37,581 nucleotides of DNA from Actinomycetota bacterium (GTDB lineage: Bacteria > Actinomycetota > Acidimicrobiia > Acidimicrobiales > Ilumatobacteraceae). Of the stretch, positions 2,359 to 34,024 are shown piece by piece. Within the stretch, counting starts at the first letter, position 1, and every line of letters starts with the position of its first letter. The position numbers and the translations under genes were made by a program. The notes beneath the pieces are model-generated. The model searched no databases. It was not told where the DNA came from and was given only the letters and a program-made list of their open reading frames with translations. The stretch covers positions 1 through 37,581 of the forward strand of contig VFZC01000022.1 in assembly GCA_016871355.1 (NCBI GenBank), read 5' to 3'.

Positions 2359-2913
2359 ATGGAAGCAACGCCGGCCGCGGCCGGGGCCACAACCGAGCCT
2401 GCCCACGTCCTCCGATCCGACGACATTTCCCGAGCGGTCACTCGCATCGCGCACGAGATCCTCGAACGCAATCGCGGTACCGAGGGCGTCGTCATCGTCG
2501 GCCTGCAGCGCGGTGGCGTGTGGTTGGCCGAACGAATCGCCGATGCCATTCAACGCATCGACGGCCAACCCATTCCTCTCGGCCGACTCGACGTGTCGTT
2601 GTTCCGCGATGATCTGGCCCTGAGGCCGGTCACGCCGGTGTCGGTGAGCGACATCCCCGTCGATCTGAGTGGTTCGCGCGTGGTGCTGGTCGACGACGTT
2701 CTCTTCACTGGTCGAACGGTGCGCGCCGCCCTCGACGCGCTGAATCAGTACGGTCGCCCGGCGTCGGTGCAGTTGGCCGTGATGGTCGACCGCGGCCATC
2801 GTGAGTTGCCGATCCGACCCGACTACGTGGGCAAGAACATTCCCACCAGCCGCGACGAAGACATCCAGGTCACGCCCGAGGCCGTCGTGCTGAAGAAGGT
2901 CGCGCCGCGATGA
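2359..2913 (+). CDS. pyrR: PyrR: pyrimidine operon regulator / uracil phosphoribosyltransferase
   Basis: PyrR binds UMP and a hairpin in pyr mRNA to lower expression of pyrimidine genes; many members also make UMP from uracil and PRPP. The 184-residue product matches the usual size. The PRPP-binding motif [13 protein letters not shown] is at 108-120, and the VGLQRGG loop near 47-53 is typical. I place the start at the ATG at 2359, five bases after GGAGG; the upstream in-frame ATG at 2314 would put 15 extra residues across the apparent PyrR RNA element and lacks a ribosome site. It is the first gene of the pyr operon and overlaps pyrB by ATGA. Confidence 0.95.
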
Positions 2914-3848
2914 AGCACGTGCGCAGTATCGACGAGCTCGGTGTGGACGGAATCGTCCGCGTCTTGAAAGTGGCCGAGCACATGGCCGAGGTGAATCGCC
3001 GACCGGTACCCAAGGTTCCGGCCTTGGTCGGCAAGACCGTGGTCAGTCTGTTCTTCGAGGACTCCACGCGCACGCGCATCTCGTTCGAGACGGCGGCCCG
3101 ACGACTGTCGGCCGACACCATGACGTTCAGTGTGTCGACGTCGAGTGTGAACAAGGGTGAGAGTCTGCGTGACACGGTCGAGACCGTGAGTGCGATGGGA
3201 GTCGCAGCCTTCGTCGTCAGACACAAGTCGAGTGGTGTTCCGTGGCAGATGGAGAACTGGACCGACGCCTCGATCGTCAACGCGGGCGATGGTTGGCACC
3301 AACACCCCACGCAGGCTCTGCTCGACTGCCACTCGATCACCGGCGCGTTCGGCATCGAGCCGGCACCCCAGTGTCTGCGCGGTCTCGCCATCACGATCGT
3401 GGGCGACGTTCGCCACAGTCGGGTTGCGCGCAGCGACATCGAAGCGTTCACGGCCCTCGGCGCCACGGTACGACTGGTCGGTCCGCGCACGTTGATGCCG
3501 CCCGACGCTTCACCGTGGGGAGTCGAGATCACCGACGACCTCGATTCGGTCATTGGCGATTCCGACGTGCTCTACATGCTGCGTATGCAACGGGAGCGCA
3601 TGAACGAGGCATTGGTCCCGCACCTCGGTGAGTATTCGACTCGATTCGGACTCGATGCCGTTCGAGCCGCCCGCATGAAGGACGGGGCCGTGGTCATGCA
3701 CCCGGGTCCGATGAACAGGGGAGTGGAGATGATGATCGACCCGTCCGAGTTGCCGCGCAGTCTCGTGACCAATCAGGTCGCGAGCGGAGTCTCGGTGCGC
3801 ATGGCGGTGCTGTTCGACGTGCTCGGTGGTCAGGAGGTCGCATCGTGA
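2910..3848 (+). CDS. pyrB: Aspartate carbamoyltransferase catalytic subunit
   Basis: PyrB joins carbamoyl phosphate to aspartate, the committed step of UMP synthesis. At 312 residues it is of normal length. The carbamoyl-phosphate loop [13 protein letters not shown] contains STRTR at 52-56; HPTQALLD and [10 protein letters not shown] are the other family motifs. No PyrI regulatory subunit gene is adjacent, as is usual for actinobacteria, so control probably comes through PyrR. The ATG at 2910 overlaps the pyrR stop and the end overlaps pyrC by GTGA, which implies translational coupling. Confidence 0.96.
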
Positions 3849-5140
3849 GCCTGTTGATACGCGGTGGTCGCATCATCGATTCCACGTCCACCGATGACCA
3901 AGGCCGTACGGCCGACGTTCTGATCGACGGCGATCGCATCGTCCAGGTGGTCGAAACGGGCCGCGAGGTGCGCGCCGACGAGGTGCTCGACGCCGCGGGA
4001 TGCGTGGTGAGTCCTGGTTTCGTCGACCTCCACGTGCATTTGCGCGAACCGGGTCGAGAAGAGTCCGAGACGATCGAAACCGGAAGTCGCGCTGCGGCCC
4101 GCGGAGGTTTCACCGCGGTCGTCGCGATGCCCAACACCGAACCTCCGCACGACTCGCGGGTGGTCGTCGACTTCGTTCGCGACCAAGGACGGCGAGCCGG
4201 TCTGTGCGAGGTGGTGCCGGCGGGATGCATCACCGTCGGCCGGGCCGGGCAGATGCTCGCACCGTTCGCCGAACTGTGTGAGGCCGGAGTTCGTTTCTTC
4301 ACCGATGACGGCAATGGTGTCCAAGACGCGCAACTGATGCGCCGAGCACTCGAGTACGCCGGTCAACTCGGACTCACTCTCGCTCAGCACTGCGAGGTGT
4401 CGAGCCTCACCCATGGTGCCGTGATGCACGAAGGAGCCTGCTGCAGTCGCCTCGGGCTCCCGGGATGGCCGTCGTTGGCCGAAGAACTCATGGTTCATCG
4501 CGACATCGAGTTGTGTCGTCTGACCGGTTCGCCCGTGCACTTCCTGCATCTGTCCACCGCACGAAGTGTCGACATGGTGCGCGCGGCCAAGGCCGAGGGT
4601 TTGCCCATCACCGCCGAAGCGGCTCCGCATCACTTCACGCTCACCGACGAAGCGCTCAGTGGATTCGACCCGGCGTTCAAGGTGAATCCCCCCTTGCGCA
4701 CACCGGCCGACATCGCGGCGCTGAAGAGCGGCCTGGCCGACGGAACCATCGATGCCATCGCGACCGATCACGCTCCGCACGCACCTCATCTCAAGGATCA
4801 GCCACTCGATCAAGCGCCACCGGGCATGCTCGGGCTCGAGACCGCATTGGCCCTCGCCCTCACCGAATTGGCGATGCCGTTGCGTGACGTGGTGGCGGCC
4901 CTCAGTTGGAAGCCGGCCGCCATCGCCCATCTGGCCGATCGCCATGGTCGACCGGTCGCGGCTGGTGAGCCGGCCAACCTGACGGTGTTCGACCCGACTG
5001 CCACCTGGACCATCGATCGTGGACAGTTGGCCAGCCGCAGTCGCAACACGCCCTATCACGGCCGAACCGTGCGGGGCCGGGTGCAGCACACCGTGTTCGG
5101 TGGCCGGGCCGTGGTGGTCGACGGAACGGCGACCAGGTGA
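3845..5140 (+). CDS. pyrC: Dihydroorotase, class I
   Basis: PyrC closes N-carbamoyl-aspartate to dihydroorotate in the third step of pyrimidine synthesis. The 431-residue length and the motif DLHVHLREPG (His63 and His65 as metal ligands) mark a class I amidohydrolase-fold enzyme. MPNTEPP follows near residue 98 and the metal-binding TDHAPH lies near residue 307. The start is GTG at 3845 in a 4-bp overlap with the pyrB stop. The metal ligands are present, so it is probably the active enzyme rather than a structural pseudo-dihydroorotase. It is followed by a 51-base AT-rich gap holding a promoter and operator. Confidence 0.95.
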   Translation: MSLLIRGGRIIDSTSTDDQGRTADVLIDGDRIVQVVETGREVRADEVLDAAGCVVSPGFVDLHVHLREPGREESETIETGSRAAARGGFTAVVAMPNTEPPHDSRVVVDFVRDQGRRAGLCEVVPAGCITVGRAGQMLAPFAELCEAGVRFFTDDGNGVQDAQLMRRALEYAGQLGLTLAQHCEVSSLTHGAVMHEGACCSRLGLPGWPSLAEELMVHRDIELCRLTGSPVHFLHLSTARSVDMVRAAKAEGLPITAEAAPHHFTLTDEALSGFDPAFKVNPPLRTPADIAALKSGLADGTIDAIATDHAPHAPHLKDQPLDQAPPGMLGLETALALALTELAMPLRDVVAALSWKPAAIAHLADRHGRPVAAGEPANLTVFDPTATWTIDRGQLASRSRNTPYHGRTVRGRVQHTVFGGRAVVVDGTATR

Positions 5141-5145
5141 CGATG

Positions 5146-5174
5146 TTTTATAATTATGCGCGAGACCGTATGAT
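5146..5174 (+). promoter_or_regulatory. Internal promoter for carAB
   Basis: A -10 hexamer TATGAT (5169-5174) sits 17 bases after TTTTAT (5146-5151) in the only AT-rich gap of the pyr operon. Transcription would start near 5181, about 10 bases before the carA ATG. The same TATGAT with 17-base spacing is found before argC. Confidence 0.65.
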
Positions 5175-5183
5175 CATTCATAC
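5155..5183 (+). promoter_or_regulatory. Probable ArgR operator (ARG box) overlapping the carAB promoter
   Basis: Perfect inverted arms GTATGA (5168-5173) and TCATAC (5178-5183) flank a 4-base centre and cover the -10. The 23 bases at 5155-5177 agree at 19 positions with 28122-28144 before argC: both are TATGC, six bases, then CCGTATGATCAT. ArgR is encoded in this window and controls carAB together with arg genes in several bacteria. Bound arginine-ArgR would block the promoter. Confidence 0.75.
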
Positions 5184-5191
5184 TCGAGGGG

Positions 5192-6277
5192 ATGACCGTG
5201 GCGATTCGTGAGGCGGCCCTCGTTCTGGCCGATGGCAGCGTGTTCGAAGGGGAGGCGATCGGAGCCGAGTCGACGATCGCGACTGGTGAAGTGGTGTTCA
5301 ACACCGTGCTGTCGGGCTACCAAGAAGTGATCACCGATCCGAGTTACGCCGGTCAGATCATCGCGTTCACGTATCCGCACATCGGCAACTACGGAACCGC
5401 GCCCATCGACGACGAGGCGTCGCGGCCGCACTGTCGCGGAGTCATCGTCCGCGACCTGGCTCGCCGCCACAGCAATCACCGCGCCGAAACGAGCCTCGAC
5501 GCGATGCTGGCCGCGCGCGGAGTCCCCGGCATCGCTGGCATCGACACGCGGCGTCTCACTCGCGTGCTGCGCGACACCGGCGCCATGCCCGGCGCGTTCG
5601 GTACGGCATCCGAGTCGGAGTTGCTGGCGGCGGCGCGCGCCGAGCGCGGCACCGATGGGATCGATCTCGTCGCCACCGTCACGACCGCTCGGCCTTACTC
5701 GTTCGGATCTGGTCGCCATCGCGTGGTCGCCTACGACTTCGGCATCAAGACCACGATCCTGCGTTGTCTGGCCGAGATCGCGACGGTGGACGTGGTGCCG
5801 GCGTCCACGTCGGCGGCCGACGTTCTCGCCCGTCGACCCGACGGTGTCTTCTTGTCGAACGGTCCCGGCGATCCGGCGGCCGTGCCGTACGCCGTCGACG
5901 CGATCCAGCAACTGCTCGGCGAGGTGCCGGTGTTCGGGATTTGTCTCGGCCACCAATTGCTCGGTCGTGCGCTGGGTGGCACCACGTTCAAGTTGCCGTT
6001 CGGGCACCACGGTGGCAACCACCCGGTACGTCACGAAGCCAGTGGACACGTGGAGATCACCAGTCAGAACCACAACTTCTGTCTCGACCCCGAGAGCCTG
6101 GCCGGAAAAGCCAGCGTCACACACCTCAACCTGAACGATCTCACCAACGAAGGAATGCGCGTTCTGAACGCACCGGCATTCAGTGTGCAGTACCACCCGG
6201 AGGCCGGGCCCGGCCCTCACGACAGTCGCTATCTCTTTGATCAGTTCGATCGATTGATGCAGGACGGGAGCTTCTGA
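5192..6277 (+). CDS. carA: Carbamoyl-phosphate synthase small (glutaminase) subunit
   Basis: CarA frees ammonia from glutamine and feeds it through a tunnel to CarB. The 361-residue protein has the CarA N-terminal domain ([26 protein letters not shown]) and a class I glutamine amidotransferase domain with nucleophile Cys251 in FGICLGHQ and the His-Glu pair in YHPEAG near 335. Two starts are possible: ATG at 5192, only one base after GAGGGG, or GTG at 5198, seven bases after it; the second fits the ribosome site better. Its own ArgR-type promoter lets it be expressed apart from pyrRBC. The product serves both pyrimidine and arginine synthesis. Confidence 0.95.
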
Positions 6278-6278
6278 C

Positions 6279-9200
6279 ATGCCCAAGCGCACCGACCTCT
6301 CGTCGATCCTGATCATCGGTTCGGGCCCGATCGTCATCGGCCAAGCCTGCGAGTTCGATTACTCGGGCACTCAGGCCTGTCGCGTCCTGAAGGACGAGGG
6401 CTATCGCGTGATCCTCGCCAACTCGAACCCGGCGACGATCATGACCGACCCCGACTTCGCGCACCGCACGTACATCGAACCGCTCACGTGGGAAGTGGTG
6501 TCGCGAATCATCGATCGCGAGAAGCCCGATGCGGTTCTACCCACACTCGGTGGACAGACCGGCCTCAACATCGCCATGGAGTTGTTCGAACGCGGTCTGG
6601 TCGGGGTGCCCGGAACACCCGAATTGATCGGCGCCAACGCCGAGGCCATTTCCACCGCCGAAGATCGCGAGAAGTTCAAGAAGGCCATGATCGAGATCGG
6701 CCTGTCGGTTCCGGCGTCGGGCGTGGCGCACGCGCTCGACGAAGCGATGTCGGTGGTCGAACAGATCGGATTGCCCGTGATCGTTCGCCCCGCGTACATC
6801 CTTGGTGGCCGCGGCACCGGAATCGCTTCCACGACCGAGCAGTTTCGGGCCATCGCGAGCAACGGCCTCGACGCCAGCCCGATTCGCGAGATCCTCATCG
6901 AGAAGAGCATCGCGGGGTGGAAGGAATACGAACTCGAAGTCATGCGCGATCGTGCCGACAATTGCGTGATCATCTGCTCGATCGAGAACGTCGATCCGAT
7001 GGGTGTGCACACCGGGGACTCGATCACGGTGGCGCCGGCTCAGACTCTTTCCGATGTCGAATACCAGATCATGCGCGATTCGGCTCTGGCCTGTATTCGC
7101 CGAGTCGGCGTCGAGACCGGTGGGTCGAACGTGCAGTTCGCGGTCGATCCGGCCACGGGTCAGCAGGTCGTCATCGAAATGAATCCGCGCGTGTCACGGT
7201 CGAGCGCACTCGCGTCGAAGGCCACCGGATTCCCGATCGCCAAGATCGCGGCCAAGTTGGCGGTCGGCTACACGCTCGACGAGATTCCCAACGACATCAC
7301 CCGGATGACGCCGGCGTCGTTCGAACCCACCATCGACTACGTGGTCACCAAGATTCCGCGTTGGGCGTTCGAGAAGTTGCCGGGCACGTCAGGGGAGCTC
7401 GGAACCCAGATGCAGAGCGTGGGTGAAGTGATGGCCATCGGTCGCACGTTCCCGGAGAGCCTGCAAAAGGCGCTGCGTTCGCTCGAACAGGGTCGACTCG
7501 GATTCAACTGCGATCCGGCCGAGAAGCAGTACGCCGAGATGTCGGACGACGAGTTGTTGGCCGTGGTCGCGGTGGCGACACCCGAGCGCTTGCTCCAGGT
7601 GGGCGACTTGCTCCGTCGCGGTGTCTCGATCGATCGCATTCACGACGCGTGTCGCATCGATCCGTGGTTCCTCGATCAGATGGCGATGATCGTCGAAGAG
7701 CGCCACGCGTTGTCGTCGGCGTCGGCCGCGACGTTGACGCCGCGCGCGTGGAAGCGGGCCAAGCGCCTCGGTTTCTCCGATGCGCAGTTGGCCTACTTGT
7801 GGGGCACGACCGAGCTCGACGTACGCGCGGCCCGCGAGCAGGCCGGAGTCGTGCCCACGTACAAGACGGTCGACACCTGCTCGGCCGAGTTCGCGGCCTC
7901 GACGCCGTACCACTACTCCACCTACGAGGACGAGAACGAGGTCCGAGCGTCCGACAAACCGCGGGTCGTGATTCTCGGTTCGGGTCCCAATCGGATCGGT
8001 CAGGGCATCGAGTTCGACTACTGCTGTGTTCACGCCTCGTTCGCGTTGCGCGACGCCGGTTTCGAAACCGTGATGGTCAACTGCAACCCCGAAACGGTCT
8101 CCACCGACTACGACACGTCCGATCGTCTCTATTTCGAGCCACTCACACGTGAAGACGTCATGAACGTGATCGCGGTCGAAACCGCCGCGGCCGGGGGAGT
8201 GGCGCCCAAGGTCATCGTGTCGCTCGGTGGTCAGACACCGCTCAAGTTGTCGGGTCAGTTGCCCGTCGAGTTGGTGGCCGGCACATCACCGTCGTCGATC
8301 GACTTGGCCGAGGACCGTGAGAAGTGGAACGCGTTGTGCCACGACCTCAACATTCCGCAACCTCCGGGCGGTACGGCGGTCACGCTGGCCGAGGCCGAAG
8401 CGATCGTGGCCGATGTGGGCTTCCCGGTTCTGGTGCGTCCGAGTTACGTGCTCGGCGGTCGCGCCATGCAGATCGTGCACGATCGCGAACACCTGGCTCG
8501 GGCGATGGCCGAACTCACCGGATTCGGCAGCCTCGGCAAAGAAGGTGGTCTGTCGGCCGAACGTCCGGTTCTCGTCGATCGATTCCTCGAGGATGCGACC
8601 GAAGTCGACGTGGACGCGATTCGCGACCACACCGGTGACGTGCTCATCGGCGGGGTGATGGAGCACGTCGAAGAAGCCGGTGTGCACTCGGGCGACTCGG
8701 CTTGTGCGATTCCACCGCAGAACTTGCCGTCGTGGGTCGTCGAAGTGATCACCACCTACACCGCATCGATCGCCGAAGCGCTCGACGTGCGCGGACTCAT
8801 CAACGTGCAGTTCGCAGTGGCCGGCACGAGCGTGTACGTGATCGAGGCCAACCCGCGCGCCAGTCGAACGGTTCCGTTCGTGGCCAAGGCCACGGGTGTT
8901 CCGCTGGCCAAGGTGGCCACTCGTGTGATGCTCGGTGCGACTCTCGCCGAACTGCGAACCGAGGGTTTGTTGATCGACTCGGTGCTCGCGTCGGGTGCGG
9001 TGGCCGTGAAGGAAGCGGTGCTTCCCTTCAATCGTTTCCCCGAAGTCGACACCGCACTCGGACCCGAGATGCGCTCGACCGGTGAAGTGATGGGTTTCGA
9101 CGTCACCTTCGGCAAAGCGTTCTACAAGGCCGAACTGGCAGCCGGAACGGTGCTCCCCACCGAGGGCATGGTGTTCTTGTCGCTCGCCGACGCCGACAAG

Positions 9201-9566
9201 CCGGCCGGACTGGTGGTGGCCAAGCGACTGCGACGACTCGGATTCGGAATCGCCGCGACCACCGGCACCGCGAAGTATCTCTCGCGTTTCGGGCTGGCCA
9301 TCGATCAAGTGGTGGGCAAGGTGAGTGAGGGTGCGGGCAACACCGCGGTCGATCTCATCGCGAGCGGTGACATCTGCTTCGTCATCAACACTCCGCAAGG
9401 TCGTGGTGGTCGTACCGATGGCGAGGCCATTCGCAAAGCGGCCAACGTGCATCGGGTGAGTTCGGTGACCACGGTCGAAGCCGCTCTCGCCGCGGTCCAA
9501 GGCATGGCCGAGCAGTTCGGACGACCATTGGAAGTTCGTTCACTCCAGGAGCACCATGGCCGCTGA
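6279..9566 (+). CDS. carB: Carbamoyl-phosphate synthase large subunit
   Basis: CarB makes carbamoyl phosphate from bicarbonate, ammonia and two ATP. Its 1095 residues show the expected duplication: two ATP-grasp halves, each opened by a nucleotide-binding motif ([17 protein letters not shown] near 13 and [16 protein letters not shown] near 567), and a C-terminal MGS-like allosteric domain from about 950 where UMP or ornithine act in other bacteria. The metal and ATP-binding ends [18 protein letters not shown] and [18 protein letters not shown] are both intact. It begins one base after the carA stop and overlaps pyrD by 11 bp. Confidence 0.97.
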
Positions 9567-28067: not shown

Positions 28068-28112
28068 GCCCCATGTTCGCAGGGTCGCTCGCCCCACCCC
28101 CGCCACCAATTG

Positions 28113-28141
28113 TTGTATCTCTATGCAGAAGTCCGTATGAT
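28113..28141 (+). promoter_or_regulatory. Promoter of the arg operon, probably giving leaderless mRNA
   Basis: TTGTAT (28113-28118), 17 bases, then TATGAT (28136-28141). A start site 7-9 bases later falls at 28148-28150, that is, on the argC GTG itself. No ribosome binding site exists upstream of that GTG. Confidence 0.7.
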
Positions 28142-28147
28142 CATACG
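28122..28147 (+). promoter_or_regulatory. Probable ArgR operator (ARG box) on the argC promoter
   Basis: CGTATGATCATACG (28134-28147) is a perfect 14-bp palindrome covering the -10. With the TATGC 12 bases before TATGATCAT it repeats the carA arrangement at 19 of 23 positions. ArgR binding here would shut off the operon that encodes ArgR itself. Confidence 0.8.
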
Positions 28148-28149
28148 TC

Positions 28150-29184
28150 GTGACCACGACACCCCGTACCGCCGCGATCCTCGGCGCCTCCGGCTACACC
28201 GGGGCCGAACTCATGCGCCTCTTGGCCGGCCACCCCGACCTGCGCCTCGTGCTCGCCACCGGCGACTCCCAGGCTGGCACGCCGGCCGCCTCGATCTACC
28301 CGAGCCTGGCCGGGCGTTACCCGGATCTCGTGTTCGCCGAGAACGATCCGGCCGCCTGCCACGGCGTCGACGTGGTGTTCTTGGGGCTACCGCACGAAGC
28401 CAGTCTCGAACTCGTCCCGCAACTCGTCGGCAAAGTCGGTTGCGTCGTCGATCTCTCGGCGGCCTATCGCTTGAAGGACGCGTCGTCGTACCCGACGTTT
28501 TACGGCTTCACTCACGACCAGCCGTCCTTGCTGGCCGATGCCGTGTACGGACTTCCCGAACGCCACCGTTCCGCTCTGGCGGGTGCGACATTGGTGGCCA
28601 CGCCTGGTTGCTATGTCACGGCGGCCACGCTCGCCATGGCCCCACTCGTCGATGCCGGGCTGGTCGACACGTCGTCGATCATCGTCGACGCCGCGAGCGG
28701 AGTCTCGGGTGCCGGTCGTGCGCCCAAGCACACGAACTCTTTCTGCACGGTCGATGAGGACGTGAACGCTTACGGTCTGCTCGATCATCGCCACACACCC
28801 GAGATGCAAGAACAAATCGGCGCCACGGTTCTCTTCACGCCTCACCTCGTACCCATGAATCGGGGCATTCTCGCCACCTGCTACGCGCGGCCAGCTGCGG
28901 GCCGATCGCTGTCCACCGATTCGCTGCTCGACGCCTTGACGTCGGCCTACGCCAATGAACCATTCGTGGTCGTGCGGAAGGACTCGCCGTCCACCAAGGC
29001 CACGCTCGGCTCGAACGCCGTGCACATCACGGCTCGCTTCGACCAACGCACCGGACACGCGATCGTGATCAGCGCGCTCGACAACCTCTGCAAGGGCGCG
29101 TCAGGCGGGGCGATCCAGGCGGCCAACGTGGCTCTCGGTCTCGACGAGACCGCCGGCCTCTCTGCAGTGGGGGTGTATCCGTGA
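28150..29184 (+). CDS. argC: N-acetyl-gamma-glutamyl-phosphate reductase
   Basis: ArgC reduces N-acetylglutamyl phosphate to the semialdehyde with NADPH. The 344-residue protein starts its Rossmann fold with AILGASGYTGAELMRLLAGHP and has the catalytic Cys154 in ATPGCYVTAA; HRHTPEMQEQ (near 216) supplies the partner His, and SGVSGAGRAPK is typical. GTG 28150 is the only reasonable start and lies three bases after the operator. First gene of the arg operon; overlaps argB by GTGA. ArgJ, usually next, is absent. Confidence 0.96.
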   Translation: MTTTPRTAAILGASGYTGAELMRLLAGHPDLRLVLATGDSQAGTPAASIYPSLAGRYPDLVFAENDPAACHGVDVVFLGLPHEASLELVPQLVGKVGCVVDLSAAYRLKDASSYPTFYGFTHDQPSLLADAVYGLPERHRSALAGATLVATPGCYVTAATLAMAPLVDAGLVDTSSIIVDAASGVSGAGRAPKHTNSFCTVDEDVNAYGLLDHRHTPEMQEQIGATVLFTPHLVPMNRGILATCYARPAAGRSLSTDSLLDALTSAYANEPFVVVRKDSPSTKATLGSNAVHITARFDQRTGHAIVISALDNLCKGASGGAIQAANVALGLDETAGLSAVGVYP

Positions 29185-30074
29185 GCACAGTCGACGATCA
29201 ATTGCGCGCCGAAGTCCTCATCGAGGCTCTTCCGTACATCCGGCGCTTCGCCGACAAGATCGTGGTGGTGAAGTACGGCGGCAACGCCTTGGCCGGCGCC
29301 ACCGACGACGATGCCTTGGCCCTCTTCGCCCAGGACATCGTCCTCATGCGTCTCGTCGGGCTCAAGCCCGTGGTCGTGCACGGTGGCGGTCCGCAGATCA
29401 GCGATCTCATGAAGCGGCTCGGCAAGACCACCGAATTCAAGGACGGACTGCGCGTCACCGACGCCGAAACCGTCGACATCGCCCGTATGGTCCTCATCGG
29501 TCAGGTCAATCCGCAGATCGTCTCGGCCATCAACGTGTACGGCGATTACGCCGTCGGCGTGAGTGGTGAGGACGCATCGCTCATCACCGCGTCACCTCGC
29601 GATCCCGAACTCGGTTTCGTCGGTGACGTCACGGCCATCAACCCGGGCATCATCCATCGCTTGCTCGCCGACGAGTTCATTCCGGTGATCGCCACCATCG
29701 GAACCGATGCCCACGGTCAGGCGTACAACATCAACGCCGACACCGTGGCCGGAGCCATCGCCGAATCACTCGGTGCCGAGAAGCTCGTGTACCTCACCGA
29801 CATCGAAGGTTTGCGGCGTCAGGTCGACGATGCCAGCAGCCTCATTCGCCAAACCACGCCCGACGAACTCGACGCGCTCATGGCCGACGGCACCATCGCC
29901 GGCGGCATGATCCCGAAGGTCGAGAGTTGCGTTCACGCCGTGCGTAACGGTGTGAAGCGCGCGCACATCCTCGACGGCCGAGTCGCCCATGTTCTTCTGC
30001 TCGAACTTTTCACCGACGCCGGAATCGGCACGATGGTCGAGCGCACCCGTCATCTCAGCGGAGGTCAGTCATGA
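29181..30074 (+). CDS. argB: Acetylglutamate kinase
   Basis: ArgB phosphorylates N-acetylglutamate and is often the arginine-inhibited step. The 297-residue protein is an amino-acid kinase with VVVKYGGNAL (phosphate-binding Lys31), VVVHGGGPQISDLMKRLG and INADTVAGAIAESLGAEKLVYLTDIEG; the end has GGMIPKVESCVHAVRNGVKRAHILDGR. The N-terminal helix (QLRAEVLIEALPYIRRFADK) is the extension of arginine-sensitive hexameric forms, so feedback inhibition is likely. GTG 29181 overlaps the argC stop by four bases. Confidence 0.97.
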   Translation: MSTVDDQLRAEVLIEALPYIRRFADKIVVVKYGGNALAGATDDDALALFAQDIVLMRLVGLKPVVVHGGGPQISDLMKRLGKTTEFKDGLRVTDAETVDIARMVLIGQVNPQIVSAINVYGDYAVGVSGEDASLITASPRDPELGFVGDVTAINPGIIHRLLADEFIPVIATIGTDAHGQAYNINADTVAGAIAESLGAEKLVYLTDIEGLRRQVDDASSLIRQTTPDELDALMADGTIAGGMIPKVESCVHAVRNGVKRAHILDGRVAHVLLLELFTDAGIGTMVERTRHLSGGQS

Positions 30075-31273
30075 GCGCCCACGCCTTCTCCACCGCCGGA
30101 GCCGACTACTGCCCGTTCATGCCGGTGTTCGGTGCACCGAGTGTGATGTTCGAGCGCGGATCGGGGACCGAACTCTGGGACGTCACGGGCAAGCGTTATC
30201 TCGACTTCCTGTCGGGCATCGCGGTGGTGTCGCTCGGTCACTGCAATCCGGCGGTGTCGGACGCCGTGACCAAGCAGATCAACACCTTGTCGCACGTGAG
30301 CAACTTCTTCGCCAACCCGGCCGCCACCAAGGCGGCTACCGACATCAACCAGTTGTTGCACGAAACCAGTGGCCAGTGGGGTCAGGTGTTCTTGTGCAAC
30401 AGCGGAGCCGAAGCCAACGAAGTGGCCATCAAGTTGGCGCGCAAGTTCGGCGGGCGTGGTCGCTACGGCGTCGTGAGCGCGCTCGGCAGCTTCCACGGAC
30501 GCACCCTCGCTGCTCTCGCCGCCACCGGTCAACCAGCCAAGCACGAACCGTTCCAGCCGATGCCCGAGGGTTTTCGCCACGTGCCGTACGGCGATCTCGG
30601 TGCGCTCGAAGCGTCGATCGATCCGTCGGTCGCGGCGGTGCTCATCGAAACCGTGCAGGGTGAAGGTGGCGTGATCCCGGCGACCACCGAGTATCTGCGG
30701 GGCATTCGTCGTCTGTGCGACGAGCGCGGTCTGCTCATGATGATCGACGAAGTGCAAACCGGATTCGCACGCACCGGTGAGTGGTTCGGATTCCAACACG
30801 CTGGCATCGCTCCCGACGTCGTCACGATGGCCAAGGGCATCGGCAACGGCTTCCCAGTGGGGGCGGCCTGGGCTCGGCGTGACGTGGCCGCGGTGTTCCA
30901 ACCGGGCGATCACGGATCCACCTACAGCGGAACCGCCATCGCCGGTGCCGCCGTGTCGGCCGTCATCGCCGAGATGCGTCGGATCGACGCACCCACGTTG
31001 GCGCGGGAGAAGGGCGAGTATTTCGCGCAGAAGTTGGTTCAGATCGACGGTGTGGAGGCGGTTCGCGGTCAGGGTCTCCTGCGCGCGGCCGAGCTCGGTC
31101 CCGGTCGCGATGCCAAGGCCGTGTTCACGGCTCTGCTCGAGCGCGGACTCGTCACCAACGCCGTCAACGCCACGTCGCTGCGGTTGGCACCGCCCATCAC
31201 GACACCACTCGAGCAGTTCGACGAAGCGGTCGACCTCATCGCCGGTGTGCTGGCCGAAGGAGTCGGACTGTGA
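30071..31273 (+). CDS. argD: Acetylornithine aminotransferase
   Basis: ArgD is a class III PLP aminotransferase converting N-acetylglutamate semialdehyde to N-acetylornithine. In 400 residues, the PLP Lys255 is in VVTMAKGIGNGFPVGA; YLDFLSGIAVVSLGHCNP, FFANPAATKAA, NSGAEANEVAIKLAR and LLMMIDEVQTGFARTGEWFGFQH are family motifs. Related enzymes also act on succinyl-diaminopimelate, but the operon context points to arginine. ATG 30071 overlaps the argB stop and the end overlaps argF by GTGA. Confidence 0.96.
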   Translation: MSAHAFSTAGADYCPFMPVFGAPSVMFERGSGTELWDVTGKRYLDFLSGIAVVSLGHCNPAVSDAVTKQINTLSHVSNFFANPAATKAATDINQLLHETSGQWGQVFLCNSGAEANEVAIKLARKFGGRGRYGVVSALGSFHGRTLAALAATGQPAKHEPFQPMPEGFRHVPYGDLGALEASIDPSVAAVLIETVQGEGGVIPATTEYLRGIRRLCDERGLLMMIDEVQTGFARTGEWFGFQHAGIAPDVVTMAKGIGNGFPVGAAWARRDVAAVFQPGDHGSTYSGTAIAGAAVSAVIAEMRRIDAPTLAREKGEYFAQKLVQIDGVEAVRGQGLLRAAELGPGRDAKAVFTALLERGLVTNAVNATSLRLAPPITTPLEQFDEAVDLIAGVLAEGVGL

Positions 31274-32166
31274 ACTTGTTGAACATCACCGACCTCGGTC
31301 CCGACGGCGTACTCAAGGTGCTCAAACTCTCGCGTCGTCCCATCAAGAAATTGGCCAAGCCGCTCAAGGGCCAGGGCGTCGCTCTCATCTTCGAGAAACC
31401 GTCCAATCGCACCCGCCACAGCGTGGAAGTCGCCGTGGTGCAACTGGGTGGTCACCCCGTCTACACCCGCGGCGAAGAAGTCGGGTTCGACGTGCGTGAG
31501 CCGGTGGAAGACATCGGCCGCATCATGGCCGGATACCACGCGATCATCGCCGCTCGTGTGTTCAAGCATTCGGTGTGTGACCGTTTGGCGGCGGTTTCGT
31601 CGGTTCCAGTCATCAACATGTTGTCCGATCACTCGCACCCGTTGCAGGGCCTGGCCGACGCGCTCACGATGGTCGACGAGTTCGGCAGCCTCGACGATCG
31701 CACCGTGGCCTGGGTGGGCGACTACAACAACGTCGCGCGTTCGCTCGGCGAAGTGTGCGCCTACCTCGGCGCGCATCTCAGGTTCGGCTGCCCGGCTGGA
31801 TACGACGTACCCGCCGACGAACTCGCACGCTTCGAAGCACTCGGTGCGAAGTCAGTGGTTCAAACGAGCGACCCGAAGGCGGCGGTCGATGGCGCGCACG
31901 CCGTCCACACCGACACGTGGGTCTCGATGGGGCAGGAGGCCGAGAAGGCCGAACGGTTGCAGATCTTCGGTGCGTACGGAGTCACCACCGAACTCATGGC
32001 GCGGGCCGATTCCGAGGCGATCTTCATGCACTGCCTGCCGGCCTATCGTGGCTACGAAGTGGCGGTCGATGTGATCGACGGTGCGGCCAGCCGGGTCATC
32101 GAACAGGGTCACAATCGTCTGCATTCCGCGCGCGGTGCCCTGGCCTATCTGATGGGGGTGCGGTGA
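31270..32166 (+). CDS. argF: Ornithine carbamoyltransferase
   Basis: ArgF transfers the carbamoyl group from CarAB's product to ornithine. The 298-residue protein has the carbamoyl-phosphate motif FEKPSNRTRHS (SNRTR at 45-49), DHSHPLQGLADALT (about 118-131), the ornithine-closing loop DTWVSMGQEAE and the Cys site HCLPAYRG (His254). The SMG loop and HCLP favour ornithine over N-acetylornithine as substrate, although the missing argJ makes the alternative worth noting. GTG 31270 overlaps argD; the stop shares one base with the argR ATG. Confidence 0.94.
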   Translation: MNLLNITDLGPDGVLKVLKLSRRPIKKLAKPLKGQGVALIFEKPSNRTRHSVEVAVVQLGGHPVYTRGEEVGFDVREPVEDIGRIMAGYHAIIAARVFKHSVCDRLAAVSSVPVINMLSDHSHPLQGLADALTMVDEFGSLDDRTVAWVGDYNNVARSLGEVCAYLGAHLRFGCPAGYDVPADELARFEALGAKSVVQTSDPKAAVDGAHAVHTDTWVSMGQEAEKAERLQIFGAYGVTTELMARADSEAIFMHCLPAYRGYEVAVDVIDGAASRVIEQGHNRLHSARGALAYLMGVR

Positions 32167-32642
32167 TGGCGGCCAAGACGCAGCGTCAACAGAAGATCGC
32201 CGAATTGATCGGAAAGCACTCGGTGGTCAACCAACCACAGCTCGTCGAGTTGTTGCGCAAGACGGGCATCGTCGCCACGCAAGCCACGGTGTCACGCGAT
32301 CTCGAAGATCTCGGCGCGGTGAAAGTGCGTGTTCCCGGCGGCGACTCGGTGTACGCGATCCCCGATTTCGCGCCGGCCCGCGTCGCTCCCGAAGATCAGT
32401 TGCGTCGCGTGATGGGCGAGTGGGTCGCCGAAGTTCATGCGTCGGGTTCGATGGTCGTCGTGCGGACACCACCCGGCTGTGCGCACGTGGTGGCCTCGGC
32501 ACTCGATCGCAGTGGAATGAAGGGCCTGCTCGGAACGGTGGCCGGTGACGACACCATCTTCTGCGTCGCCGAAGAATCGCTCGGAGCGAAAAAGTTGGCG
32601 GCGATCCTGCGCGACTTGGCCGGTATCGGAGGACGGAAATGA
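32166..32642 (+). CDS. argR: Arginine repressor ArgR
   Basis: ArgR is a hexameric, arginine-binding repressor of arginine genes. The 158-residue protein has an N-terminal winged helix (about 1-70; recognition part VATQATVSRDLEDLGAVKV) and a C-terminal oligomerisation and arginine-binding domain (about 80-150) with the GTVAGDDTIF signature, Asp128-Asp129 being the arginine contacts. ATG 32166 overlaps the argF stop by one base; GTG 32163, one codon earlier, would give the 4-bp overlap common here. Its likely operators are at 28122-28147, before its own operon, and at 5155-5183 before carA. Confidence 0.96.
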   Translation: MAAKTQRQQKIAELIGKHSVVNQPQLVELLRKTGIVATQATVSRDLEDLGAVKVRVPGGDSVYAIPDFAPARVAPEDQLRRVMGEWVAEVHASGSMVVVRTPPGCAHVVASALDRSGMKGLLGTVAGDDTIFCVAEESLGAKKLAAILRDLAGIGGRK

Positions 32643-34024
32643 GCGATTCGGGAAAGACCCTCTGGCACGGCCGTTTCGCCGCCGGCCCGGCCGACGAACT
32701 CATGGCGTACACCGTGAGCCTTCCGTTCGATCGACGGTTGTGGCGCGACGACATCGCCTGTTCGCGTGCACACGTCACCGGTCTCGCGCACGTCGGAATT
32801 CTCACCGCGACCGAGCGTGATGCCGTACTCGCGGCCCTGGCCTCGGTCGAAGCCGAAATGGAGTCCGGTTCGTTCGTGTTCGCGCCTTCCGACGAAGACA
32901 TTCACACCGCGGTCGAACGGCGGGTGACCGAACTCTGCGGTCCTCCGGGCGCCAAGTTGCACACCGGCCGCAGCCGGAACGATCAAGTGGCCACCGGTTT
33001 GCGTTTGTGGTGCAAGCGAGAAGTGCCCAACATCGTCGCGCACATCGTGGCGCTGCAAGAAGCGTTGATCGCTCGGGCCGATTCGGCTGACGGCGTGTAC
33101 CTGCCCGGCTACACCCACGTGCAGCGAGCGCAGCCCGTTCTGTTGGCACATCACCTCATGGCCCATTGCTGGGCCCTCGGCCGCGACATCGATCGACTGC
33201 ACGATGCCCTCGACCGTCTCGACGTGTCGTCGCTCGGTGCCGGAGCATTGGCAGGTTCGTCGCTGCCCCTCGACCCGGCTTTCACCGCTCGGCAACTCGG
33301 TTTCGCCGACGTGTTCACCAACTCGCTCGACGCCGTGAGCGATCGCGACTTCGTGGCCGAGATCTTGTTCGCGTTGTCGATGGTCGCGGTCCACCTGTCG
33401 CGACTCGGCGAGGAGTGGGTTCTCTGGACGAGCGAGGAGTTCGGTTTCGCGGTTCTCGATGATGCCTACGCCACGGGATCGTCGATGTTGCCGCAGAAGA
33501 AGAACGCCGACATCGCCGAGTTGGCCCGCGGCAAGGCCGGTCGCGTGATCGGAGATCTCACCGGACTCCTGGTCACCCTCAAGGGATTGCCGCTCGCGTA
33601 CAACCGCGACCTCCAAGAAGACAAAGAACCGCTCTTCGACGCGGTCGATCAAGTGTCGCTGGCGCTGTCGGCCCTATCCGGCATGATCGGCACCGCACGA
33701 TTCGTTCCCGAGAAGATGCAGGCGGCAGCCGATTCGCCCACCATGGCAGCCACCGATCTGGCCGAGCATCTCGTGCGGGCGGGGACTCCATTCCGCGACG
33801 CGCACGCGATCGTCGGCGCTCTCGTTCGGCGTTCGCTCGCCGGCGACGGTGCACTCGTCGATCTCGTGCGCACCGAGCTCGGCGACGAGGCCGCGGCGTT
33901 GGTCGCTCCGGGCGTCGGTGTCACCATGCGCACCACTCCCGGCGGAGCTGGTCCGAAGCCGGTGGCCGAACAACGTGTCCTCCTCGGACGCGCCATGGCG
34001 GCGTGGAAGAATCGTCGACCGTGA
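32639..34024 (+). CDS. argH: Argininosuccinate lyase
   Basis: ArgH splits argininosuccinate into arginine and fumarate. The 461-residue protein belongs to the fumarase/aspartase superfamily: the signature GSSMLPQKKNADIAE (from Gly280) holds the catalytic Ser, and TGRSRNDQVATGLRLW and PGYTHVQRAQPVLLAHH are the ArgH-specific motifs. ATG 32639 overlaps argR by ATGA. argG, which makes its substrate and commonly lies between argR and argH in actinobacteria, is absent and must be elsewhere. Confidence 0.97.
   Translation: MSDSGKTLWHGRFAAGPADELMAYTVSLPFDRRLWRDDIACSRAHVTGLAHVGILTATERDAVLAALASVEAEMESGSFVFAPSDEDIHTAVERRVTELCGPPGAKLHTGRSRNDQVATGLRLWCKREVPNIVAHIVALQEALIARADSADGVYLPGYTHVQRAQPVLLAHHLMAHCWALGRDIDRLHDALDRLDVSSLGAGALAGSSLPLDPAFTARQLGFADVFTNSLDAVSDRDFVAEILFALSMVAVHLSRLGEEWVLWTSEEFGFAVLDDAYATGSSMLPQKKNADIAELARGKAGRVIGDLTGLLVTLKGLPLAYNRDLQEDKEPLFDAVDQVSLALSALSGMIGTARFVPEKMQAAADSPTMAATDLAEHLVRAGTPFRDAHAIVGALVRRSLAGDGALVDLVRTELGDEAAALVAPGVGVTMRTTPGGAGPKPVAEQRVLLGRAMAAWKNRRP

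Follow-up and report, generated by a model that had tools for sequence, protein, structure and literature searches.

Carbamoyl phosphate is common to two pathways, and Escherichia coli is the classic case of one synthase being balanced between the two demands. How might this balance be struck where the synthase genes, carAB, stand inside a pyrimidine operon? The question is raised by a stretch of 37,581 nucleotides (contig VFZC01000022.1, assembly GCA_016871355.1) from an uncultured actinobacterium of the Ilumatobacteraceae, a freshwater group that is little studied; the whole of this stretch is called the window here. Its pyrimidine genes are pyrR, pyrB, pyrC, carA, carB and one of pyrD type; argC, argB, argD, argF, argR and argH follow further along. 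The ArgR, PyrR, PyrB, PyrC, CarA, ArgC and PyrD families were tested with profiles, and the remaining names (carB, argB, argD, argF and argH) are presumed from the sequences and from gene order. The carAB genes lie directly 3′ of pyrC and in the same direction, across a gap of 51 nt (5141-5191). The features on which the argument turns are the following:

2330-2343, + strand: PyrR-type loop AGTCCGGTGAGGCT in the pyrR leader, beginning 29 nt before the ATG (2359)
2359-2913, + strand: pyrR (NF003549, 221.9 bits, cut-off 138; profile run on 2314-2913)
2910-3848, + strand: pyrB (family profile match)
3845-5140, + strand: pyrC (family profile match)
5145-5162, + strand: ARG box 1 before carA, GTTTTATAATTATGCGCG (matrix score 14.5, third-best single plus-strand site of the window)
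5165-5182, + strand: ARG box 2 before carA, ACCGTATGATCATTCATA (matrix score 20.2, best single site of the window)
5169-5174, + strand: putative -10 TATGAT of a carA promoter, inside box 2 (promoter scan; register of argC box 2)
5192-6277, + strand: carA (TIGR01368, 446.3 bits; start ATG 5192, or GTG 5198 after GAGGGG)
6279-9566, + strand: carB (ORF of 1095 amino acids immediately 3′ of carA; named by position and sequence)
28112-28149, + strand: paired ARG boxes before argC, GTTGTATCTCTATGCAGA and TCCGTATGATCATACGTC (tandem score 34.1; argC GTG at 28150)
32166-32642, + strand: argR, arginine repressor of 158 amino acids (TIGR01529, PF01316, PF02863)

Outside this set, positions 1-480 of the window hold long lysine-, alanine- and proline-rich repeats, on the N-terminal side of an ORF that ends at 877 and is presumably DksA/TraR-like.

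The gap between pyrC and carA contains GTTTTATAATTATGCGCG-AG-ACCGTATGATCATTCATA (5145-5182), that is, two 18-bp boxes with centres 20 bp apart, and the 2 bp between them fall within the 2-3 bp that place a pair on the same side of the helix. Under a matrix from other genera (14.5 and 20.2) both conform to the 18-bp palindrome with a TGNAT-N4-ATNCA core. Each agrees with the classic ARG box at 11/16 positions, which is degenerate yet clearly over background; in box 1 the left half is degenerate and the right half is ATGC. The region upstream of argC reads GTTGTATCTCTATGCAGA-AG-TCCGTATGATCATACGTC and abuts the argC start codon. The scoring matrix was trained on the argC sites of the family with the window's own genus left out, and the window was scored on both strands. 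Tandem scores are 34.8 at carA, 34.1 at argC and 5.6 at the best other place. The spacing profile peaks at 20 bp for both genes, the runner-up at carA being 17.6 at 23 bp. Dinucleotide shuffles of the carA region give a mean of -16.3 (sd 6.7, maximum 19.3), and 0/5000 reach 34.8. When the same matrix was applied as a control to the 1 kb upstream of E. coli carA, the top pair scored 25.3 at 23-bp spacing and the second, which has one box in common with it, 15.1 at 21 bp; this second-ranked pair is presumably the documented one, judging by the account in PMC6245113.

The first-pass annotation had drawn attention to this 51-base gap for a match to the argC control region at 19 of 23 positions, CCGTATGATCAT included. 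The match was confirmed (5155-5177 against 28122-28144), and in 1000 shuffles of both 51-nt gaps the best 23-mer identity is 16. What had been read as a second AT-rich half-site is in fact the core of a complete second box (5145-5162), and the paired ARG boxes suggested from it do exist. The same reading placed TATGAT under an inverted repeat. Both elements are present, the repeat being GTATGA/TCATAC at 5168-5183. It is centred on 5175.5, however, and the ARG box on 5173.5; the outermost pair of the repeat is missing in the nearest relative (G022), and the ARG-box register is the conserved part. The repeat was rejected as the operator, the conserved centre lying 2 bp upstream.

The presumed regulator is encoded in the same window, 27 kb from the carA boxes, as had been noted at first reading. 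The protein matches TIGR01529 with 135.8 bits (cut-off 130.45) and has both ArgR domains, PF01316 and PF02863. Its nearest solved structure is 3ere (also 3laj and 3lap; E 7.3e-32), and residues 4-150 align with the sequence of these entries, TQATVSRDLE and GTVAGDDTI included. At argC, the GTG stands 8 nt after the putative -10 (28136-28150), and the argC mRNA is probably leaderless for that reason; box 2 lies at most 20 nt from the aligned ArgC start in 45/57 family genomes. The arg cluster of the window (28150-34024) shows neither argJ nor argG, the latter being located elsewhere in the genome. A wider ArgR regulon in this genome was considered and rejected: the argG locus has no ARG pair (best tandem -4.1, one strand scanned), argJ was not found in the genome, which is 85.8% complete, and the exact core GTATGATCATNC occurs genome-wide only before carA and argC, with one-mismatch copies at six other places. 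That whole-genome scan covered one short pattern only, and weaker sites may exist elsewhere. Since argJ was not found at this level of completeness, the acetylation step is left unexplained.

The arrangement recurs in the family. The argC training set comprised 57 of the 61 family genomes (G005, G009, G047 and G056, with argC only partly matched, were omitted); its seed pattern was picked after viewing the argC regions and was not fitted to carA. All 57 argC pairs select 20 bp among spacings of 18-23. For carA, upstream sequence was taken from 58 of the 61 genomes (carA is cut by contig ends in G044, G046 and G049), and a pair was called at a score of at least 14.9 within 170 nt, each genome's own genus being excluded from training. 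None of 11600 mono-shuffled carA upstreams attains 14.9; 22 of the 58 real ones pass, and 21 of those 22 prefer 20 bp among spacings of 15-29. A scan of all fetched carA upstream sequence, for which the matrix left out the window's genus only, adds G017, G036 and G052 (142-151 nt away) and G019, where the pair lies 694 nt before carA, behind pyrC. The total, G019 counted, is 26/58 family genomes and 15/27 genera; in the other 32 no carA pair was found, the best score being 8.2. Three of the pairs (G011, G024 and G056, the last from the window's genus) consist of one strong box and a weak partner. Named loci were scored in 78 of 80 cases, two having too little upstream sequence, and 10/78 reach 14.9 before carA, some of them duplicating genomes already counted. 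Directly upstream of carA, pyrC is found in 19 of the 26 pair-bearing genomes and not in the other seven. Among the 31 family genomes with pyrC upstream and without a pair, the gap is shorter than 40 nt in 24, and seven are roomy yet pairless. ArgR was found in 54/61 family genomes and in 22/26 of those with a carA pair; the four in which it was not found (G014, G024, G037 and G052) are perhaps broken assemblies. What separates the ARG boxes from carA in G019 is almost 700 nt of repetitive sequence (L146, about 810-1500).

The other input to be considered is PyrR, for which the loop sequence and a translational mechanism are known in mycobacteria. AGTCCGGTGAGGCT, taken here to be a PyrR loop on the strength of its sequence, is the only match in the window, on either strand, to the PyrR loop pattern (A/G)(A/G)UCCNGNGAGG, and at 2330 it sits on a hairpin predicted by local folding. 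A survey of the 200 nt upstream of the aligned pyrR start in 30 family genomes found TCCNGNGAGG in 26/30, on paired stems that differ in sequence (CGAG/CTCG, CGGG/CCCG, TGAG/CTCA, TCGG/CCGA and TGG/CCA). The loop is present in 17/21 pyrR leaders of genomes with a carA pair; G015, which is among those without it, offers no more than 30 nt of sequence at this place. With a stricter pattern it is found at 13/78 named loci, most of the others having G at the first place or too little sequence. PyrR-binding leader RNA corresponds to Rfam family RF00515 (PMC3766115). The window's leader resembles such RNA in its loop sequence and in a hairpin placed before pyrR beside the ribosome site; it differs in that RF00515 is not matched anywhere in the window at the gathering score, nor in 2200-2500 up to E 1. 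The leader is called only PyrR-type because of this, and PyrR would be its ligand by analogy.

Taken together, these elements suggest that an ArgR operator and a promoter are superimposed in the pyrC-carA gap, with read-through from the pyr genes as a second supply, a reading to which we give a probability of roughly 0.9. Arginine-bound ArgR would occupy both carA boxes, cover the -10 TATGAT and close the carA promoter when arginine is plentiful. Transcripts from upstream of pyrR would be gated by PyrR at the hairpin of the pyrR leader and would probably run on into carAB, so that pyrimidine demand would still be met. As in E. coli, carAB would then have a pyrimidine-sensitive supply upstream and an arginine-sensitive supply downstream. 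The claim made at the outset, that carAB has its own ArgR-type promoter, gains support from the argC sites of other genera, the carA pairs in 15/27 genera, the 20-bp spacing, the -10 register within box 2 and the encoded ArgR. Its corollary, split control of carAB and pyrRBC, fares less well: an ArgR arm at carAB is indeed predicted, but a clean division, with carAB set by arginine alone and pyrRBC by PyrR alone, is unlikely. Such a division would agree with the position of the window's only PyrR-type loop, before pyrR, and with the 51-nt gap by which pyrC avoids overlapping carA. Against it, no terminator-like site was found before carA in 4900-5400, carAB is co-directional with pyrC and directly behind it, and the carA product is needed for pyrimidines too. 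Because no such terminator was seen, read-through and dual rather than split control are expected, and carAB probably receives both PyrR-governed pyr transcripts and those of its own ArgR-repressed promoter.

The promoter itself is less sharply defined than the operator. A scan gave 9/12 for TTTATA at 5147 with TATGAT at 5169-5174 (promoter-like site 5147-5174). The candidate -35 (TTTATA) is poor; TATGAT in box 2 is the likely -10, with transcription expected to start near 5181, and TATAAT at 5149-5154 in box 1 could be an alternative -10. At argC, positions 5-10 of box 2 read TANNNT in 57/57 genomes and those of box 1 in 2/57; the left half is GTAT in box 2 in 57/57 and GCAT in box 1 in 35/57. 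Since TANNNT is fixed in argC box 2 and not in box 1, the -10 seems to be built into box 2 of argC-type pairs, and the TATGAT of the window's carA box 2 stands in the same register. The 26 carA pairs of the family have TANNNT in the box-2 register in six cases, at one other fixed place across the spacer in 11 and in neither in nine; the promoter part is more variable among them than the operator part. It might be argued that argC and carA have nothing more in common than a strong AT-rich -10 region, ArgR having no role. TATGAT would serve well as a -10, the sites stand out by their AT content in a GC-rich sequence (GC 0.342, against 0.651), and TANNNT is invariant in argC box 2. However, a promoter has no need of paired palindromes with GNAT/ATNC half-sites at a constant 20 bp, and 20/26 carA pairs retain the palindrome without TANNNT at that place in box 2, which makes this account very improbable.

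The distribution of the pair is consistent with a trait of some lineages. On a tree of 30 CarA proteins it needs four changes, against a mean of 10.1 in shuffles, of which 0/500 are as low; the window's genus joins a clade of small pairless genomes (98/96; midpoint root). That the carA boxes are a decaying relic, with carAB not controlled by arginine here, would fit the degenerate left half of box 1 and the related small genomes without a pair, but is highly improbable, for the carA pair scores as high as that of argC and pairs are found in all four searched genomes of the genus (34.8, 32.7, 25.8 and 19.5), as well as in L198 (36.5) and L199 (20.8), two named relatives. Outside the family, scores were obtained for 65 of 108 genomes with a carA match: G133 gives 21.0, G159 gives 12.2 and the rest -1.3 or less, that is, one of 65 carA regions passes the 14.9 threshold and a second is weaker. 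Other-family argC regions pick 20 bp among spacings of 18-23 in 25/26 cases, several with low scores (lowest 2.4). Because nearly all of these argC regions and few carA regions outside the family have the pair, argC seems to have come under ArgR long ago, and ArgR control of carA seems to be mainly a feature of Ilumatobacteraceae.

In five genomes the two inputs meet in another way. G008 (L030), G015 (L021), G018 (L020), G037 (L025) and G053 (L015), from three genera and with three of the five in one genus, have carAB elsewhere than behind pyrC, and carry a PyrR-type loop and a ribosome site 127-179 nt before the aligned carA start. The ARG boxes lie between loop and carA, inside a short ORF of 35, 35, 38, 41 and 38 codons, respectively; judged by the distances, its stop overlaps the carA start as ATGA in four genomes and by 14 nt in G008. 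Local folds of 36 nt give a PyrR-type hairpin in all five leaders; in 85-nt folds of G008 and G015 the hairpin is not the best structure. Such a leader, in which the two inputs are combined, is possibly a new variant. We tentatively propose, as a possibility with somewhat less than even odds, that the carAB leader of the family is modular and two-input and has been rebuilt by lineages, with a PyrR RNA hairpin upstream and an ArgR-over-promoter DNA input next to carA. In the genera with a PyrR-type hairpin before an ORF of 35-41 codons and pyrC absent in front (g9, g16 and g19), the ORF would relay PyrR repression by coupled translation and transcripts from the ArgR promoter would escape it; in the window, pyrC would replace the relay. 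In addition, a PyrR-type loop without ARG boxes precedes carA in G033 (L014) and L202, and G010, which shares its genus label with G033, shows ARG boxes and lacks the loop within the searched stretch.

Comparison with better known systems shows what is shared and what is not. In E. coli, carAB has tandem promoters P1 and P2, and arginine-bound ArgR represses the downstream one at two 18-bp ARG boxes, one hexamer sitting on both (PMC6245113). The predicted arrangement is alike in having a downstream ArgR-repressed promoter, two 18-bp ARG boxes and a pyrimidine-sensitive supply upstream. It differs in several respects: PepA, PurR, RutR and IHF govern P1 in E. coli, where the boxes, separated by 3 bp, overlap the -35 (PMC6245113), whereas in the window they are 2 bp apart, over the putative -10 and inside the pyr operon, and the upstream arm would be PyrR. 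In Streptomyces coelicolor, ArgR acts on arginine and pyrimidine genes (PMC3293853, PMC5839063). The likeness there is an actinobacterial ArgR and adjacent arcB and argG boxes that are 20 bp apart by coordinates. Boxes are named at pyrR, pyrB, pyrA (carB) and pyrD, those of pyrR, pyrB and pyrA being single and of 5.6-9.3 bits; unlike in the window, none is given before carA in the parts of these accounts that were covered (PMC3293853, PMC5839063). Among the literature matches listed there was no paper on ArgR at carAB in Ilumatobacteraceae, a weak indication, as subscription papers were mostly beyond reach. ArgR repression of carAB is already known from E. coli; what is new is that the same control is predicted in the little-studied Ilumatobacteraceae.

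For the family, this means that control of the same design, assembled from different components, is predicted in Ilumatobacteraceae, and in some lineages only. The patchy occurrence of the carA pair provides a ready-made comparison of how control of this kind arises and is lost.
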